Assembly (NCBI GenBank): GCA_902522465.1
Contig: CABYVV010000011.1
Location: 1-46,643 of the forward strand
Source of the DNA: an uncultured Alphaproteobacteria bacterium
GTDB taxonomy: Bacteria > Pseudomonadota > Alphaproteobacteria > Methylaequorales > Methylaequoraceae
Length of the DNA: 46,643 bases
Direction: 5' to 3'
Under the pieces are notes generated by a model. That model was not told the DNA's origin, made no database searches, and saw only the letters and a program-made list of their open reading frames with translations. The translations under genes and the position numbers were made by a program. Within the stretch, counting starts at the first letter, position 1. Each line of letters begins with the position of its first letter. Of the stretch, positions 8,659 through 16,879 are shown piece after piece.

Positions 8659-9505
8659 TGATTTGATTTTTCAAATAATCGTTATATTTTTTAATAAGTA
8701 CTTTGGTTATTTTTCCGGGTTTACCATCATTTATGGTTTTATTTTCAAATTTCACTACAGGAAGTACACCGACTGTTGTACTTGTTAGGAATGCTTCTTC
8801 ACAACTATCAAGATCTGTAGTTGTAAATCCATTTTCAATTACAGAAAATTTATTTTTTTTTGCAATCTCAATAACAGAATCTCTAGTCACACCTCCTAGT
8901 ATAAAATTATTTGATGGATGAGTTCTTATTTTATTATTTTTATTAACAATGAAGGCATTTGAAGTAGACCCTTCCGTTATAAGATTATCTCTAATCTGCC
9001 AGTATTCATAAAAACCATTTTCAAATGCTTTTTGTTTCTCCAGTACATTGGGTAATAACGATATTGATTTGATATCGCATCTACTCCATCTAAGATCGTT
9101 TGTAAGTCCAATCTCTACACCTCTCAGTATATTTGTATTATCAACTTCTAAAGAAAAAGTAAATATTACAATATTAGGTATAATTATATTAGGAAACAAA
9201 TGGTTTCTTTTTGCATTACCTCGTGTAATTTGCAAATAAATATAACCATCGTTTAGTCTATTTAAATTAATTAACTTTTTTAATATTAATTTTAAGGACT
9301 TTTTGTTAGCCAAAGGTAAAGGTATTTGTAATTTTTTAAGTGAATTATCTAGTCTTTTTAGATGTTTAGAAAAATTAAGAATTGTGTTATTGCAATAAGC
9401 CATAACTTCATAAACGCCATCAGAAAAGTTAAAACCTCGATCTTCTATCGAAATCATTGCTTCTGATTTTTCTTGAAATGATCCGTTAATATAACAAAAT
9501 ATCAT
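8645..9505 (-). CDS. dat: Class IV aminotransferase, probable D-amino-acid transaminase
   Basis: This PLP-dependent fold-type IV aminotransferase has 286 residues. The likely Schiff-base lysine is K146 in RCDIKSISLLPNVLEKQ, which closely resembles the corresponding block of D-alanine transaminases. E178 in ITEGSTSNAF is the usual glutamate near the PLP ring nitrogen. The RG-to-H stretch (R95 to H102) matches the substrate carboxylate-binding region of D-amino-acid transaminases rather than branched-chain enzymes. The likely role is interconversion of D-alanine and D-glutamate for the cell wall. A broader class IV function cannot be excluded. The start touches the end of trkA. Confidence 0.83.
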   Translation of the reverse strand: MIFCYINGSFQEKSEAMISIEDRGFNFSDGVYEVMAYCNNTILNFSKHLKRLDNSLKKLQIPLPLANKKSLKLILKKLINLNRLNDGYIYLQITRGNAKRNHLFPNIIIPNIVIFTFSLEVDNTNILRGVEIGLTNDLRWSRCDIKSISLLPNVLEKQKAFENGFYEYWQIRDNLITEGSTSNAFIVNKNNKIRTHPSNNFILGGVTRDSVIEIAKKNKFSVIENGFTTTDLDSCEEAFLTSTTVGVLPVVKFENKTINDGKPGKITKVLIKKYNDYLKNQINAKN

Positions 9506-10887
9506 CAGAAAAACTCAATATTCACTTCTGAATATTTTTCTATATCCTTAATGGATGATGGTTCCGAAAAAATTATTAATTTATCCTTAACAAAAATAGT
9601 TGTATTTTCTTCAGGAAAAATTACTTTTTTATCCCTGACGATACCTCCAATTACAACTCCTTCTGGCATGTCCAAATCAGAAATTTTCTTATCTGCAAAC
9701 TTGGTAGTCGGAAGTATTTCTATTTCCATAATTTCTCCTCTTTCATTCCCAAAATCATGTACTTCTTTGACTTTTCCTCTTCTTACGTACTGGAGAATAG
9801 CAGATGTTGTTATATTACCAGGATTAATGAGAACATCTAAATCAAGTTTTTTAGATAAATTTCTATAATTTGAATTGTTTACAATTGCCATTGTTCTTTT
9901 ACATCCTAGGTCTTTTGCTAATAATGATGAAAATATATTTACTTCATCATCGTCCGTTACTGTTATTATAGCTTCAGCATTACTTGCACCAGCTTCTTTT
10001 AGTAGATTAGAATCTGTGGCATCTCCAAACAGAATAGTATTTTGTTTTGAAAGCATAGAAGATATTTCTTTTGTCCTTTCTAGGTTATTATCTATAATTT
10101 TACAATTAATATCAGGATAATCTTTTTCAAGAATTTTTAAGATATTCAAACCAATATTACCCGCTCCAACAACAATAAGTTTTCTATTCTCTTGTGGTTT
10201 AATTCCAAAGACCCTTAAAGCTCTGAGTATATCTTCGTTTCTAATACAGATATAAATATCATCACCTGGATAAAGTTCTACTTTTCCAGTTGGGACTACA
10301 ATTTTATTTTTCCTAAAAATTGAAAGTATCTTGACTTCTAATCCAGAGAAGATACCTGGAAGCATCCTTAGTGGAGTATTAATTATTGGGCAATTTTCAT
10401 TAATAGAAATTCCTACAATTCTAGCTTTTTTATCACCTAAATAAAAAGAATCAAAAGCTCCGGGAGTATTAAGTTTTCTAATAACATCTTTTGCCACTTC
10501 TAACTCAGGTGAAATGATTGCATCGACTTCAATTTTACCTGAGGAAAATAACTTTTTAGTAAAATGTGGATTTAAATATTCTGATTCTTTAATTCTTGAC
10601 ACCTTAAGTGGAATTTTAAATAAATGATTTGCCATTTCGCATGAAATAATATTAATTTCATCACTATCCGATACTGCAATTATCATATCTGCTTCATCAG
10701 CTCCAGCCTTTTCTAAAATAGCTGGATGAGAGGGTTTTCCACAAATACTTTTTAAATCGACACTTTTATTTAATAGTCGCAGTAAAGATTCTGATTCATC
10801 AATAATTGTAACATCATTATCTTCGTAAACTAATTGTTTTGCGATATTTGAACCTATTTCACCAGCCCCACAAACTATTATTTTCAT
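9505..10887 (-). CDS. trkA: Trk potassium uptake regulatory protein TrkA
   Basis: The 460-residue cytoplasmic protein has the duplicated TrkA architecture: RCK-N, RCK-C, RCK-N, RCK-C. The first NAD-binding glycine motif is at the N-terminus (CGAGEIG) and the second is near residue 235 (VGAGNIG). It gates the TrkH/TrkG membrane potassium channel in response to nucleotides. The channel subunit is not in this window. It follows ntrX by 2 bp, and this ntrX-trkA linkage is conserved in many Alphaproteobacteria. Confidence 0.95.
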   Translation of the reverse strand: MKIIVCGAGEIGSNIAKQLVYEDNDVTIIDESESLLRLLNKSVDLKSICGKPSHPAILEKAGADEADMIIAVSDSDEINIISCEMANHLFKIPLKVSRIKESEYLNPHFTKKLFSSGKIEVDAIISPELEVAKDVIRKLNTPGAFDSFYLGDKKARIVGISINENCPIINTPLRMLPGIFSGLEVKILSIFRKNKIVVPTGKVELYPGDDIYICIRNEDILRALRVFGIKPQENRKLIVVGAGNIGLNILKILEKDYPDINCKIIDNNLERTKEISSMLSKQNTILFGDATDSNLLKEAGASNAEAIITVTDDDEVNIFSSLLAKDLGCKRTMAIVNNSNYRNLSKKLDLDVLINPGNITTSAILQYVRRGKVKEVHDFGNERGEIMEIEILPTTKFADKKISDLDMPEGVVIGGIVRDKKVIFPEENTTIFVKDKLIIFSEPSSIKDIEKYSEVNIEFF

Positions 10888-10889
10888 TG

Positions 10890-12254
10890 TCAGATATCCA
10901 TGTTAATTTTCAATAATTTTAATTTTCTATACAAGGCAGTTCTTTCCATACCTATTTCAGATGCCATTTTTGATACGTTATATTCAAATTTTTTCAAATT
11001 GTATATAAGATAATTTCTCTCAAACTCATCCCTAGCATTTTTAATTTTTAGGTTCATGGAATCTTTAAAATATTTTTTACTCGAATCCATTTTATTTATA
11101 CCCAATGTGTGTATGTCATTCTTAGAAATCTCAGTTTTATTATTATCATTTATCATCACCAAAATCCATTCAACTAATTTTTTTAATTGTAAAATATTTT
11201 TTAAAATTTCTAAATTATTTAAATATGACAATGCATCAGAGGAAAAAGTTTTAAACTTAATTCCTTTTTCCATTGAGATTTTCATTGAAAAAATTGAAAC
11301 AAGTTCTTCTATATCTTCTTTTCTATTATCAAGTGCTGGTATTACTATTTTTGTAAAATTTAGTAGTTTAATCAAGTCTGCCCTAAGATTAATTTCATTT
11401 AATTCACTTTTTGAGGATGCTAAAATTCTTAAATTAAGATTATTAGAATTTAAGGCACCTATTCTATAAAATTTTTTTTCGTCTAAAATTCTTAATATTT
11501 TCCCTTGCATTTTTTTTGATAAAGAATCAATGTTTTTTAAGTATAAGGTTCCATTATTAATCTCATCTAAGATTCCAAAAGATTTGATAACTTGATTCTC
11601 CTCCAGACCAAACAAATCAACTTCCAAGGTATCTTGATTCATTCTACAATCTAGAGACTTAAAGTTTTTTTTTGACCTATGTGATAAGTTGTGTATTTTA
11701 TTAGCGACAAACTCCTTTCCTGATCCCTCACCACCAATAATATAAATATTTGAATCAGTTTTACTCACATTATCTATATTTTTTTTTAATATTTTAGATA
11801 ATTTAGAATTTGCAACAAACTCAGAATTTGTTCCTTGATTTGCAAAATATTCAATTTTTTTTTTTAATACTAAATTTTCCAATGCTTTCCTAATTTTAAA
11901 AATAAGCAAATCTGCATCAAATGGTTTTTCAATAAAATCATAAGCCCCTTTTTTAATTGAATTTACTGCAGTTTCAATATTTCCATGTCCACTTATCATA
12001 ATTACTGGAATTTTATTCTCAATTGATTGAAACTTCTCAAGTGCTTGAAAACCATCAAATTTTGAATTATTAAGCCAAATATCAAGTAAAACTAGCGAAA
12101 TATTTGTTTTTCTAAAAATTTCAATACCTTGCTCTGATGAAGTTGAATATACGCAATCATATCCTAAATCACTAAGCAAACCTGATAATTGATTACAAAT
12201 GTCTATTTCATCATCAATTATTAATATTTTTGTATCCCTATCAATCATACTCAA
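10890..12254 (-). CDS. ntrX: NtrX-type response regulator with a degenerate AAA+ domain
   Basis: This is the response regulator partner of the adjacent NtrY kinase. The receiver domain looks functional: acidic pair D14-D15, phospho-acceptor D58, and K110 in FIEKPF. The central AAA+ domain is abnormal. Walker A is GGEGSGKE (174-181). The sigma-54 contact loop GAFTGA is absent, because after DLFG the chain runs LEENQVIKSFG. The Walker B block reads GTLYLKNI, so the Asp-Glu pair is replaced by K240-N241. The arginine-finger region is also altered (RADLIKLL). The C-terminal Fis-type helix-turn-helix is preserved. The protein therefore probably binds DNA and acts without sigma-54 remodelling. Loss of GAFTGA is, to my knowledge, common in alphaproteobacterial NtrX; loss of Walker B is less expected. 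Confidence 0.92.
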   Translation of the reverse strand: MSMIDRDTKILIIDDEIDICNQLSGLLSDLGYDCVYSTSSEQGIEIFRKTNISLVLLDIWLNNSKFDGFQALEKFQSIENKIPVIMISGHGNIETAVNSIKKGAYDFIEKPFDADLLIFKIRKALENLVLKKKIEYFANQGTNSEFVANSKLSKILKKNIDNVSKTDSNIYIIGGEGSGKEFVANKIHNLSHRSKKNFKSLDCRMNQDTLEVDLFGLEENQVIKSFGILDEINNGTLYLKNIDSLSKKMQGKILRILDEKKFYRIGALNSNNLNLRILASSKSELNEINLRADLIKLLNFTKIVIPALDNRKEDIEELVSIFSMKISMEKGIKFKTFSSDALSYLNNLEILKNILQLKKLVEWILVMINDNNKTEISKNDIHTLGINKMDSSKKYFKDSMNLKIKNARDEFERNYLIYNLKKFEYNVSKMASEIGMERTALYRKLKLLKINMDI

Positions 12255-12262
12255 AAGAAAAT

Positions 12263-14386
12263 TTAGGTTATAAAGAGTTTAACTCTTACACAAGCTCCAC
12301 CTAGTTTTTCGCTATCTAACAAGCTAATTTCTCCACCATGATCCTCAATAATTTTTTTACAAATAGCAAGTCCTAGGCCAGTACCATTTTTTTTATTAGT
12401 TATGTATGGTTCAAAAAGCTTGTCTCTATTTTCTGAAAAACCATGTCCATTATCTTCAAAATTTATAACAACATTATTTTTAATTTTATTTACTTCAACT
12501 TTTATTAACTTATTTTTTTTTGTAATAGATTCATAAGAATTCTTTAAAATATTTAGAAAAACTCTTCCAATTTGATTTTTATCACATTTAATTTTTAAGT
12601 CTTTAAATGAATTATTATTTATAATTTTAATTTTATTATCTAAAATAGAAATAGAATTTATTTGAGTTTCAATTATTGAATGTAACTTAACTGTTTTAAA
12701 TTCACTTTCTGGCATTCTTGCAAAATTTGAAAATTCAGTAACTAATGTTTGTATGTTATTAACCTGTCTCTTTATCGTATCTGTACAGTTAATCAATATA
12801 TTTTTATCATCTTTAGTATTGTCAAAAATATTCTCTAATCTTTGTGCAGAAAGTTTTATAGGTGTTAATGGATTTTTTATTTCATGAGCCATATATCTTG
12901 CAACACTTGACCAAGCAGCATGTTTTTGTGCAGATATTAGTTCTGTTACATCATCTATACTAAGAACAAATCCTTTTATTTTTTTCTTTTCTACTAATTC
13001 AGATAATTTTATATTTAAAAATTTTATTTTTTCATTAACAGGAAATTTAATTTGATATTCATTATTTTTTAATTTATTTAGTTTGAAACTTTTTAAAATA
13101 TTACTTAAAGAAATATTTTCAGAAATAAAGTTTTTTTTTACTTTATTATCAAAAATTTCCTGAGAACTTTTATTTGACAACAAGACTTTATCATTTAAAT
13201 CAACATAAATTATACCAGTATTTACATTATTAATTATTTTTTCGGTAAATTTTCTTCTAAGATTTATTGTCTCTTTTGCTTTTAATAATTTATTTCTTTG
13301 CAGACTTAAAATATCAAGCATTTTGTTTAGTACGTTAGATAAAATATTGAATTCATGATTCCCAACAAAGACTCTGATTCGTTTAGAAAAATCTTCATTT
13401 ATAATTTTTTCGGAATCAATAATAATTTGCATAATAGGTTCTATTATTTTATTAGCAAACCTGAGCCCAAACCAAACGGATAATAATATCATCAAAAAAT
13501 TTATAGCAACAAATAATTGATTGAATTGATATTGAAAGTTATCAAGTCTTTGATTGATGTTTAAATAATCACTAGCTGCATCATCTACTGATTCTACTCT
13601 GTTCAAAACATTAGAGTCAACATCTTTACCTATAAAAAGATAAGTAGGTATTGCTCTTTGAACTTTAATTAAAGCCCTCACTTTGGTTTTATTATTATTT
13701 GGAAAAACAGCAATATCTCCATCATCTGCAATTAAAAATGACCACAAGGGTGGTGCTGTTTCTGATTCAATTAGAAAACTCCCAACTTTAGCCAGTAATT
13801 GACCAGAACTTTCGAAGATAATAGCTTCATCTAAATCTTTTATTTGCACAAAGTAACTAAGAAATTCTGTTAACCTGTCTTTATTAGTAAAATAAACTAT
13901 TTTTTCGTTATTAATTTCGCTTCTTATGAATAAAATATCGTTTTTAATATTCTTGGTATGTTCATTGAAATATGATTCAGAAATTTTTTTTGAACCATTT
14001 ATTACACTCGCTATTTTATCATTAAACCAAATCTTAATTCCTTGATCAAAAAAAATTAAGGAGAACACTGTTATAAGGGTAGTTGGGATAAGAGTAATAA
14101 AAATAAAAAAAAGTGTGAATTTAATTTTCAGTTTTGACTTCAATTTCTCCTGCTTAAAATTATCCTTAATTTTTTTAAATGAAATTAATATTAGGATTAC
14201 AATAAGGCCAAAATTAATTGAGATTAAGTTTGAAACATTATCTATTTCCTCTAAATTTGATAATTTTCCAGATAATGATAGAAAAATTATTAAACTAATA
14301 ATAAAAGCAGATAAAAAAATTAGTAAAAAGAAAAAGTTTAAGGTATTTTCCTTAATCGCAAACTCTTTAAATTTTGAATCAATCAT
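12263..14386 (-). CDS. ntrY: NtrY sensor histidine kinase
   Basis: The 707-residue membrane kinase has several N-terminal transmembrane helices (around 15-40, 45-65 and 85-110), a periplasmic region of about 170 residues, a further helix near 290-310, then HAMP and PAS-like regions. The kinase core follows. The phospho-acceptor is H501 in AHEIKNPLTPIKLSAQRL, with a later N-box (FLNILKNSYESI) and G-box (GTGLGLAICKKI). NtrY responds to nitrogen or redox state in studied Alphaproteobacteria and phosphorylates NtrX. The start overlaps the ntrC stop (ATGA). Both partners are encoded in one operon. Confidence 0.95.
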   Translation of the reverse strand: MIDSKFKEFAIKENTLNFFFLLIFLSAFIISLIIFLSLSGKLSNLEEIDNVSNLISINFGLIVILILISFKKIKDNFKQEKLKSKLKIKFTLFFIFITLIPTTLITVFSLIFFDQGIKIWFNDKIASVINGSKKISESYFNEHTKNIKNDILFIRSEINNEKIVYFTNKDRLTEFLSYFVQIKDLDEAIIFESSGQLLAKVGSFLIESETAPPLWSFLIADDGDIAVFPNNNKTKVRALIKVQRAIPTYLFIGKDVDSNVLNRVESVDDAASDYLNINQRLDNFQYQFNQLFVAINFLMILLSVWFGLRFANKIIEPIMQIIIDSEKIINEDFSKRIRVFVGNHEFNILSNVLNKMLDILSLQRNKLLKAKETINLRRKFTEKIINNVNTGIIYVDLNDKVLLSNKSSQEIFDNKVKKNFISENISLSNILKSFKLNKLKNNEYQIKFPVNEKIKFLNIKLSELVEKKKIKGFVLSIDDVTELISAQKHAAWSSVARYMAHEIKNPLTPIKLSAQRLENIFDNTKDDKNILINCTDTIKRQVNNIQTLVTEFSNFARMPESEFKTVKLHSIIETQINSISILDNKIKIINNNSFKDLKIKCDKNQIGRVFLNILKNSYESITKKNKLIKVEVNKIKNNVVINFEDNGHGFSENRDKLFEPYITNKKNGTGLGLAICKKIIEDHGGEISLLDSEKLGGACVRVKLFIT

Positions 14387-15819
14387 TTTTTTCCGTATTT
14401 TAATGGAATTTGAAGTTTTTTTATCTTAGCTCTTAACGTATTTCTATTTATACCAAGTATTTTGGCAGCTTTAATTTGATTCCCTCTACAAAATTCTAAA
14501 GTTTTAAGTATCAATGGTTTTTCAAATTCATTTATAAACTTTTCATGCAAACCAATTAATTCAACATTGTCATCTAAGGTTTTATAAAAATTATTTAAGA
14601 AGCTATTTAAATAAGTTCTTAGATTTTCTTTTTCTGACTTATTTTTTATTTTGTTGACATCATCATAATTTAACTTTTCTTCAAAATCTATATGATCTTC
14701 AAGAAGAAATGAATTAACAACTGATTCATGGGTAAGCACTGAAATTCTTTTTAACAGATTTTCTAATTCTCTTATATTACCTGGCCAATTATAATTTTTT
14801 AAGAAACTTATTGCTGTACTGTCAAATTGTTTTTTTCCATCGGAATAAAGTGATAGATAATGTCTAGCCAATGAAATAATGTCATTTTCTCTCTCTCTTA
14901 AAGGTGGTAATGATATATTAATGACATTTAATCTGTAATAGAGATCATCTCGAAATTGATTGTTTTCTACCGCATTTTGTAAATTTTTATTTGTTGCTGA
15001 TAAAACCCTTACGTCTGTTTTAATTGAACTTCTTCCTCCAACTCTAGTAAATTCACCAAACTGTAAAACTCTTAACAGTCTAGATTGAATATCATAAGGC
15101 ATATCACCAATCTCATCCATAAAGAGTGTCCCACCAGAAGCCTTTTCAAAAAATCCAGCAGTTTGCTTTTCAGCTCCAGTAAATGCTCCTTTTTCGTATC
15201 CAAAGAGTTCACTTTCTATTAGGTTTTTTGGTAAAGAGGCCATATTTATTACAACAAAAGGTTTCTTAGATCTATCACTAAAGTTATGTATTGTCTTTGC
15301 AACTAACTCCTTTCCAGTACCAGACTCACCGTTAATCAATACTGAAAAATTTGTTTTTGTAATCTTTGCAATATTTCTATAAACAACTTGCATAGCTGGA
15401 GATGTTCCAATCATTGGAAGGTTTTCTTCAATTTGAAAATGATCACTTGTTGATGACTTTTTTTTTAAGGATCTATCAACAGAAATAATTAAGTCATTCA
15501 AATCTAAAGGTTTGGGAATATACTCAAAAACATCTAATTGATCTGCTTTAATTGCAGTTAAAATATTATTTTGGGCACTAATAATAATAAACTCCAAAGA
15601 ATCAAATTTTTTTTTTAATTTTTTTACCAATTCAAGACCATCTCCGTCAGGTAATACAACGTCACATATTACCAAGTCAAAATGCTCTTTTTCTAATATG
15701 AACCAGCCTTCAGATATACTTGATGCTGTCTTAATATTAATCTTTGACGTACTTAATGCTTTGACCATTAAAAGTTTGAGAGAATGATCATCATCAATTA
15801 TAAGTATTTTTTTTTGCAT
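14383..15819 (-). CDS. ntrC: Nitrogen regulation response regulator NtrC (sigma-54 activator)
   Basis: The 478-residue protein has all NtrC modules intact. The receiver has phospho-acceptor D53 and K103. The AAA+ domain has Walker A GESGTGKE (164-171), the sigma-54 contact motif GAFTGA (211-216) and Walker B TLFMDEI (D235, E236), followed by RDDLYYRLN. The C-terminal Fis helix-turn-helix ends in AAKILGINRNTLRAKIKK. It activates sigma-54 promoters for nitrogen assimilation genes under nitrogen limitation. Conservation of every catalytic element implies that the genome still encodes RpoN, which is not in this window. It overlaps ntrY by 4 bp and follows ntrB by 7 bp. Confidence 0.97.
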   Translation of the reverse strand: MQKKILIIDDDHSLKLLMVKALSTSKINIKTASSISEGWFILEKEHFDLVICDVVLPDGDGLELVKKLKKKFDSLEFIIISAQNNILTAIKADQLDVFEYIPKPLDLNDLIISVDRSLKKKSSTSDHFQIEENLPMIGTSPAMQVVYRNIAKITKTNFSVLINGESGTGKELVAKTIHNFSDRSKKPFVVINMASLPKNLIESELFGYEKGAFTGAEKQTAGFFEKASGGTLFMDEIGDMPYDIQSRLLRVLQFGEFTRVGGRSSIKTDVRVLSATNKNLQNAVENNQFRDDLYYRLNVINISLPPLRERENDIISLARHYLSLYSDGKKQFDSTAISFLKNYNWPGNIRELENLLKRISVLTHESVVNSFLLEDHIDFEEKLNYDDVNKIKNKSEKENLRTYLNSFLNNFYKTLDDNVELIGLHEKFINEFEKPLILKTLEFCRGNQIKAAKILGINRNTLRAKIKKLQIPLKYGKK

Positions 15820-15826
15820 AATAATC

Positions 15827-16879
15827 TTAAAACGGTAGGTTTATTTTAACAGAGGTTGTCCCATTCTCCGACTCTACTGTTATAGTGCCCCCATGTTCAT
15901 TTATTATTTTTTTTACCAAAAACAAACCGATTCCTGAACCCCTTTTTTTGGTAGAAAAAAAAGGAATAAATATTTTATCCATTATTTCTTTAGAAATACC
16001 TACACCATTTTCTGATATTATTATACTTAAAGAGTTCTTTTTAATATAGTTTTTAATATTTGGTATCTTAATCCTTTCCCCAACCATAAATCTAGTTTGA
16101 ATTTTTAGATATGATGAATCTATAAAATTAGATGATTCATATGAATTTATGAAGATATTATCTAATGCCTGGATTATTAAATCTCTATTTAATTTAATTA
16201 ATGGTAGAGATGGATCGAATTCCTCAATTATTTTGATTTTATTTGGCATTTGCTTTATTTTAAATAAACACAGTCTTATTATCTCATGAATATTTTCTTC
16301 AGTTGTTCTTGTAATATTTTTCAATTCAGTAAGGTTGAAATTAGAAAATAATCGACTAATCCGTAAGGCCTCGGATTTTATTATGTTAATTAACTCTTTA
16401 TCAACCATACTGTAGTTTTTCTTTATTAATTCAGATGCAAGTTTAATAGAAGATATTGGATTATTTACTTCATGAGAAAGCATAGAAAAGGTTTCATTAA
16501 AAAAATCTAAACTTTTATCTCCTGTTTGATATTTATCCTTTTCAACATTTTTCAAAACTAGAATTAAATTACTTTTTATTTCTTCACTATTAATGCATTT
16601 AATTTCAAAGATTGAGTCGGCGAACTTTAATCTGTCTTTAATAACAAAAGTACCTTGTTTTTTAGTGATTTCTTTAATATTTTCAAAAAAATAATGTTCA
16701 GTTATGAAAATTTGATTTATTTTTTTTCCTAATAAATATTCATTACTTTTTTTTAGCAAATTTTGAGTTTCTTGATTACAAGTAACAACTTTTAATTCTT
16801 TTTTATCTAAAATAAGAATTGGATCCGGAAAAATTTCAAAAATAACATTAAATGGAATCTTATCTGTTTTTTTTGACAT
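15827..16879 (-). CDS. ntrB: Nitrogen regulation sensor kinase NtrB
   Basis: This soluble histidine kinase/phosphatase has 350 residues, with no membrane segment. It has an N-terminal PAS domain (about 10-110), then the phospho-acceptor H136 in SMLSHEVNNPISSIKLAS, and a C-terminal ATPase domain with GSGIGLFLVKKIINEHGG. NtrB senses nitrogen status through the PII protein and controls NtrC phosphorylation; no PII gene is present here. The gene lies 9 bp after dusB, matching the conserved alphaproteobacterial nifR3-ntrB-ntrC order. Confidence 0.93.
   Translation of the reverse strand: MSKKTDKIPFNVIFEIFPDPILILDKKELKVVTCNQETQNLLKKSNEYLLGKKINQIFITEHYFFENIKEITKKQGTFVIKDRLKFADSIFEIKCINSEEIKSNLILVLKNVEKDKYQTGDKSLDFFNETFSMLSHEVNNPISSIKLASELIKKNYSMVDKELINIIKSEALRISRLFSNFNLTELKNITRTTEENIHEIIRLCLFKIKQMPNKIKIIEEFDPSLPLIKLNRDLIIQALDNIFINSYESSNFIDSSYLKIQTRFMVGERIKIPNIKNYIKKNSLSIIISENGVGISKEIMDKIFIPFFSTKKRGSGIGLFLVKKIINEHGGTITVESENGTTSVKINLPF

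Follow-up and report, generated by a model that had tools for sequence, protein, structure and literature searches.

An alphaproteobacterial NtrX with Lys-Asn in place of the Walker B Asp-Glu pair suggests a rebuilt ATPase site

What becomes of an NtrX response regulator when the Walker B Asp-Glu pair of its AAA+ domain is replaced by Lys-Asn, while the NtrC encoded in the same operon keeps every element of its motor? We address this question in the window, that is, the whole stretch of 46,643 nucleotides analysed here (contig CABYVV010000011.1 of GenBank assembly GCA_902522465.1; G+C content 27.6%), which comes from the genome of an uncultured alphaproteobacterium (1.33 Mb, 35 contigs, 87% complete). 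The passage from an AAA+ motor to a plain regulator is usually seen as end states only; NtrX gives a graded series across Alphaproteobacteria.

Locus and domain architecture

The gene sits in a standard ntrB-ntrC-ntrY-ntrX-trkA operon, all on the minus strand, and adjoins ntrY:

9505..10887, minus strand: trkA, downstream of ntrX
10890..12254, minus strand: ntrX, 454 aa from TTG or 452 aa from ATG, with receiver (REC), AAA+ (Sigma54_activat), lid and HTH_8
12263..14386, minus strand: ntrY sensor kinase, HisKA and HATPase_c found
14383..15819, minus strand: ntrC, with GAFTGA, Walker A/B, Arg fingers and sensor II all intact
15827..16879, minus strand: ntrB-like sensor kinase, by profile matches

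The minus-strand frame at 10890–12254 is open over 454 amino acids, and the plus strand there is full of stops. Translation probably begins at the ATG at 12248, two codons after the TTG, a start that we favour because the NtrX of a genus-mate (L004, MIDKETR...) begins there; residue numbers given here keep the TTG-based count of an earlier note on this DNA and are lower by 2 in the ATG count. Pseudogene status is ruled out by the open frame together with the purifying selection described below.

Pfam recognizes a receiver, a sigma-54 activator AAA+ domain, a lid and a Fis-type helix-turn-helix in the protein. The top NCBIfam match is NtrX at 389 bits, against 197 bits for NtrC; this score lies below the 600-bit naming cut-off of NF051870, which is an annotation rule and not a biological criterion, and the shortfall would be due to divergence of the AAA+ domain. 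In a tree, the window protein clusters with NtrX, apart from three NtrC of its order used as outgroup (branch 100). The earlier note had read the receiver Asp and Lys and the Fis-type domain as kept, and all are in place; their positions are given here with their state in the clade of NtrX from the window's order that shares the Lys-Asn pair (the KN clade):

12081..12083, minus strand: receiver phosphoacceptor Asp58 (GAT), invariant across the KN clade
11925..11927, minus strand: receiver Lys110 (AAA), invariant across the KN clade
10917..11033, minus strand: Fis-type helix-turn-helix, residues 408–446 (HTH_8, 1.1e-8)

Together with D14, D15 and S88, which are likewise invariant across the KN clade, D58 and K110 make up the complete residue set of a phosphorylatable regulator.

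The gene for sigma-54, rpoN, was found in the window's own genome and, across its order, in 24 of 32 genomes, many of them incomplete. The operon NtrC, which had been described as fully intact, indeed has GAFTGA, Walker A, Asp-Glu, both Arg fingers and sensor II, and NtrC is intact in 24/24 order members read, one of which has GSFTGA. One order NtrC match (L214, G017:C6:74624-76045), with a GSFTGA loop, contains a TGA inside. In two genomes of the order, G025 (92% complete) and G026, NtrC carries GAFTGA, yet no rpoN match was found, which would reflect either an assembly gap or NtrC persisting after sigma-54 loss. Two more sigma-54 activators, in which no receiver was matched, lie back to back on opposite strands elsewhere in the window genome (G000:C5:26887-29267) and are possibly further RpoN users; a similar pair was seen again in other genomes of the order.

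The AAA+ nucleotide site

The sites that bear on ATP hydrolysis and on contact with sigma-54 are as follows:

11712..11735, minus strand: Walker A, residues 174–181 (GGEGSGKE); Lys180 is Arg in 5/21 KN-clade members
11649..11651, minus strand: Asp202, at the place of the glutamate-switch Asn (PspF N64); Asp in 19, Glu in 1 and Asn in 1 of 21 KN-clade members
11565..11615, minus strand: shortened loop 1, residues 214–230, the GAFTGA site; GAFTGA absent
11532..11537, minus strand: Walker B pair Lys240 (AAA)-Asn241 (AAC), replacing Asp-Glu
11382..11384, minus strand: Arg291, first Arg finger kept (PspF R162-like); 22/22 in the KN clade
11364..11366, minus strand: Leu297, second Arg finger lost (PspF R168-like); Arg in 1/22 KN-clade members
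11184..11207, minus strand: lost sensor II motif (WPGNVR-like), residues 350–357; sensor II Arg in 0/22 of the KN clade

The earlier note had placed the Walker B pair at K240-N241, and three approaches agree with it. HMMER alignment with Brucella abortus NtrX (5m7n) sets 'gtlylkni' on 'gilyldev'; MAFFT alignment with class NtrX and the window's NtrC gives the same placement; and in an AlphaFold model (mean pLDDT 85.2; 94 for the block 231–240 and 91 for 241–250) K240 ends the Walker B strand (236–240), just as D202 ends the strand 198–202. The alignment and structure prediction proposed as checks thereby rule out a misplacement. The modelled AAA+ domain superposes on FlrC, FleQ, NtrC1 and PspF at 2.1–3.6 A; the full-length model is nearest to Brucella NtrX (5m7o/p/n), but at an rmsd of 10–12 A over the whole length, and it therefore confirms the domains only and not their arrangement.

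Seen as a sigma-54 enhancer-binding ATPase, the window NtrX lacks GAFTGA, as had been noted, in a loop that is also shortened, and lacks the Walker B Asp-Glu; of the two Arg fingers and the sensor II Arg (here L355), one of three is kept. The description of the arginine-finger segment as altered thus stands for the R168-like residue (L297) but not for the R162-like one (R291). The nearest solved structure, that of the orthologous B. abortus NtrX (PDB 5m7n, 5m7o, 5m7p; Fernandez et al. 2017, as cited in PMC5892882), has the same domains and is also without GAFTGA, and the titles of its PDB entries report ATP and ADP complexes; where the window NtrX has Lys-Asn, Leu and Leu, the Brucella protein aligns with an intact Walker B Asp-Glu (LDEV), second Arg finger and sensor II Arg. 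Residue by residue, this supports the conclusion that the window NtrX would be unable to reach sigma-54 through GAFTGA or to hydrolyse ATP in the ordinary way, the latter because it has lost both Walker B acids along with its second Arg finger and sensor II Arg.

Hydrolysis might nevertheless persist through relocated chemistry with Asp202 as the base, given that an acid occupies position 202 in 20/21 KN members and that the P-loop glycines are kept. We find this scarcely credible: the Mg-binding Asp has become Lys, the second Arg finger and the sensor II Arg are lost, and even with its Walker B intact the Brucella protein reportedly binds ATP and shows no ATPase activity.

Walker B and GAFTGA in the order and the class

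The window's order is represented in our sample by one family, 12 genera and 32 genomes, among them the genus-mate G008 (isolate AG-908-F15, recognised by an identical stretch of 2,500 bases), which from the style of its isolate name we take to be a marine single-cell genome. NtrX was obtained from 25 of the 32, with Walker B reading KN in 22/25, DQ in 3/25 (genera g2, g4 and g10) and DE in 0/25. When the columns of these traits were masked, the KN rows still grouped as a single clade in the NtrX tree (SH-aLRT 99), and the NtrC tree separates the same genera (100). The DQ members keep the Asp (and the sensor II Arg in 3/3) and have Lys as second Arg finger in the two readable rows, and the KN members are altered at both Walker B positions (the Mg-binding Asp and the Glu) as well as at sensor II and the switch Asn. 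On the basis of this pattern, loss of the Glu and of the second Arg finger probably preceded the changes at the Asp, sensor II and the switch Asn, which would date to the ancestor of the KN genera; the tree behind this staging leaves the rooting among the DQ rows unsettled.

For the class, we drew 191 genomes, of which 160, including 3 of the window's order, gave a match to the window NtrX with an E-value of 1e-38 or lower; the 157 NtrX from outside the order (27 loci, 120 stretches and 10 more) were all read. GAFTGA, sought as GxFTGx, occurs in 0/157 of these, in 0/25 of the order and in 0/80 named loci, and a looser pattern sought in the NtrX loop found none either. Since it is missing from 157/157 class NtrX read, its absence is a class-wide NtrX trait and not news. 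The proposal that this NtrX had turned sigma-54-independent therefore survives in part: there is no GAFTGA route, but neither is there a change particular to this protein. Mapping Walker B on a tree, a further check proposed in the earlier note, confines KN within the order to one clade.

Walker B is another matter. Outside the order it reads DE in 131/157 class NtrX, and the other 26 show 13 different pairs (DN, DH, NE, EE, KE, DQ, TD, RE, DD, LN, SS, ED and EN). A FastTree tree of 183 rows, which joins long branches at the base, gives 11 changes from DE as a rough minimum only. The 80 named loci comprise 74 DE, 3 KE, 2 DD (Brevundimonas) and 1 KN, the last from the genus-mate of the window genome. 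KE was read in L267, L281 (Reyranella), L295 (Alphaproteobacteria bacterium 65-37), G090 (5.4 Mb) and G051 (1.1 Mb), and Asp-to-Lys change therefore arises outside the window's order, in a large genome too. Genomes of 2.0 Mb or less account for 20/26 non-DE against 33/131 DE cases (Fisher p 1e-6, kinship ignored). rpoN was found in 16/26 non-DE against 110/131 DE genomes (Fisher p 0.014, uncorrected); among genomes up to 2 Mb, non-DE pairs occur in 10/32 with and 10/21 without rpoN. By these counts, loss of rpoN is weak as a driver of Walker B loss, and the window genome itself has rpoN. In six small genomes of 0.7–1.2 Mb (loci L313 in G079, L309 in G187, L193 in G122, L194 in G052, L179 in G168 and L314 in G086), Walker A residues or sensor II are missing from NtrX as well, and the helix-turn-helix is kept. 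The NtrX match of one MAG (RS797; L265:3001-4359) has one stop codon inside, from a sequencing error or a broken gene.

A second, denser view of Glu loss comes from the order of genome G118 (families f88 and f136), which looks SAR11-like: f88 genomes measure 1.0–1.5 Mb, and two loci of this order have 26% G+C. SAR11 has only sigma-70 and sigma-32, and the NtrY/NtrX pathway is one of the four two-component systems named for it, according to the accessible part of a paper on the SAR11 strain HTCC1062 (PMC13198564). A search for rpoN in 117 genomes of the SAR11-like order gave 0 matches over the cut-off; three matches under it (E 3.5e-4 to 4.2e-4, frames of 843–874 aa) were not taken as rpoN. NtrX is present in 95/117 of these genomes, and 69 were read besides that of G118 (loci L308 and L318-L386; G215 is also in the class sample). 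Walker B in f88 (n=44) reads DE in 18, DQ in 19, DN in 6 and DH in 1, so that the Glu is lost in 26/44, and it is an intact DE in 25/25 of the sister family f136. Like the window NtrX, these 26 proteins have lost the Walker B Glu; unlike it, all f88 proteins keep the Asp, the Walker A Lys, the second Arg and the sensor II Arg (44/44). Glu loss in f88 would thus be parallel to, and independent of, that in the window's order, given that f136 and 18/44 of f88 still have DE. A 49-row tree contains two rows of the SAR11-like order, which fall together with the window's order (92); these rows are AT-rich and the grouping may be an artefact, and the argument for independence therefore depends on those SAR11-like members that still have DE.

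Across Alphaproteobacteria, the series thus runs from an NtrX in which GAFTGA is absent (157 sampled), through repeated loss of the Glu in small genomes, probably including SAR11, to the replacement of the Asp by a conserved Lys. In the literature searched, which left subscription papers mostly outside, we found no description of Walker B loss in NtrX or of SAR11 NtrX. What is new here is the conserved Walker B replacement; sigma-54 independence is already ordinary for NtrX.

These distributions also bear on the idea that NtrX is a non-catalytic partner of NtrC in mixed rings or dimers, tuning NtrC and lending Arg291 to its active site. The shared operon with an intact NtrC, the presence of rpoN in 24/32 order genomes and the invariance of R291 are all compatible with such a role; the window NtrX has, however, lost its second Arg finger along with loop 1, and NtrX without the Glu persists in the SAR11-like order too, with rpoN over the cut-off in 0/117 genomes. 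On what the residues and genomes tell us, we regard such a partnership as very improbable.

Constraint and possible function of the Lys-Asn site

We compared 232 AAA+/lid columns and found 140 in which the residue most frequent among the 131 DE proteins, whether or not it is strongly conserved across the class, occurs in <20% of the KN clade; of these, only K240 and N241 are invariant in 22/22 KN sequences. Of the 60 columns conserved in >=90% of DE proteins, the KN clade keeps 28 and has lost 20, and among the lost ones again only K240 and N241 became invariant, in a comparison whose reference proteins were picked as DE, so that the full class conservation of that pair is by construction. The pair had been singled out by the earlier note before any alignment. 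Codons at both positions vary synonymously among the 22 KN sequences (K240, AAA 14 and AAG 8; N241, AAT 17 and AAC 5), and the invariance is therefore not for want of time.

The domain as a whole is under purifying selection. In 10 close, partly overlapping pairs, dN/dS over AAA+ and lid is 0.11–0.23 in NtrX against 0.04–0.09 in NtrC, or about twice the NtrC value for the AAA+ domain. Mean identities within the order, taken from 22 genomes with both proteins, are alike for NtrX and NtrC in the receiver (0.72 versus 0.71) and the helix-turn-helix (0.70 versus 0.69) and diverge in the AAA+ domain (0.51 versus 0.79) and lid (0.39 versus 0.57). Constraint has thus been relaxed across the AAA+ domain and lid, and the invariant Walker B pair marks where it has been set anew.

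The main rival explanation is passive decay under AT pressure, in which a protein without the sigma-54 loop can dispense with ATP turnover; its pocket would then drift in small genomes with AT-biased mutation, and Lys-Asn would simply be the pair that came to be fixed. The excess of non-DE pairs in small genomes, the variety of substitutes outside the order (13 pairs) and the preference of AT-rich DNA, such as that of the window, for Lys (AAA) and Asn (AAT) codons all speak for it. Plain decay nevertheless fits poorly, because K240 and N241 alone became invariant while their codons varied and because dN/dS stays at 0.11–0.23; R291, moreover, is kept in 22/22. We therefore consider decay rather unlikely, and the pattern of residues suggests instead an ATPase site rebuilt for another job. 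The description of the AAA+ motor as dead would hold for hydrolysis, judged from sequence, but not as a statement of decay. The accompanying view that the domain serves only for oligomerisation or as a scaffold may be too strong, because the P-loop glycines, Lys or Arg at position 180 (Lys 16 and Arg 5 of 21 KN members) and R291 are kept; the Arg in those five members can mean that their pocket is empty.

The glutamate switch has changed as well. In PspF, E108 of Walker B touches N64 and also R162' from the neighbouring subunit, and R162' in turn touches D164', as set out in the available text of PMC4132715. In the KN clade the place of N64 is acidic in 20/21, that of E108 is Asn, and that of D164 (D293) is Asp in 21/22 and Glu in one; the pair thus looks reversed and the contact with the neighbour preserved, the roles of K240, N241 and D202 being read from alignment and secondary structure. 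Outside the order, an acid at the switch position accompanies 4/17 NtrX without the Glu and 0/139 with it (Fisher p 1e-4, kinship ignored; 156 rows, fragment L316 left out), an association that is not significant, with too few pairs, in a tree-corrected independent-pairs test; in f88 the acid is found in 1/26 NtrX without the Glu. These counts rule out an acidic switch as the general companion of Glu loss, and since the acid is rare after Glu loss elsewhere, we claim the reversal for the KN clade only.

Taken together, these observations lead us to consider it probable that the window NtrX is a sigma-54-independent, phosphorylation-driven regulator whose AAA+ domain would be a non-hydrolysing module with a rebuilt nucleotide site. 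NtrY would phosphorylate the receiver Asp, and phospho-NtrX, in the form of a dimer or small oligomer, would bind DNA at its sites and act without sigma-54 and without ATP turnover, the AAA+ domain being retained, we suggest, because it still folds and packs against its neighbours. Lys240 may fill the place of Mg2+, such that a nucleotide is held in the absence of Mg2+ and never turned over, or such that the pocket is permanently closed; Asp202 and Asn241 may form a reversed glutamate-switch pair that faces the retained Arg291 of the next subunit. A more specific version, which we put forward tentatively as the less likely course, is that K240-N241 and D202 represent a new, selected nucleotide-site chemistry, in which Lys supplies the Mg2+ charge and the reversed switch holds a permanently liganded or closed, hydrolysis-free lock that fixes the oligomeric state and leaves control to phosphorylation alone. 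Were this lock real, a SAR11-like family in which our search found no rpoN would be taking the first step on the same way, loss of the Glu. A functional Lys-Asn site would also offer a natural test of the role of an enhancer-binding AAA+ domain without hydrolysis.

Regulators that resemble parts of this picture are known. The PspF variant E108Q hydrolyses ATP more slowly, has a higher ATP affinity and keeps its switch pair engaged (the accessible text of PMC4132715; PDB 4qnm, 4qnr, 4qos); the same Glu-to-Gln change occurs in the three DQ members of the window's order and in 19/44 of f88. PspF E108Q keeps the Mg-binding Asp and GAFTGA, however, whereas the window NtrX has lost both. As far as the consulted portion of PMC10274813 goes, the NtrC proteins of Caulobacter and Rhodobacter capsulatus, which are without GAFTGA, act at sigma-70 promoters, the former needing Walker A and B residues and the latter ATP binding but not hydrolysis, and Vibrio VspR, also GAFTGA-less, acts at sigma-70-type promoters and is said not to need ATP. 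On that account, the window NtrX is like all three in lacking GAFTGA and unlike the two NtrC proteins in that Walker B itself is replaced.

In Sinorhizobium meliloti, NtrX phosphorylated at D53 binds CAA-N3-5-TTG sites, according to the accessible part of PMC9223101. A count of this motif over the window proved uninformative (87 copies versus 45 in 20 simple shuffles that preserve nothing beyond single-base content). Among the few operon stretches inspected, two copies of the motif lie within 250 bases of the ntrB start.
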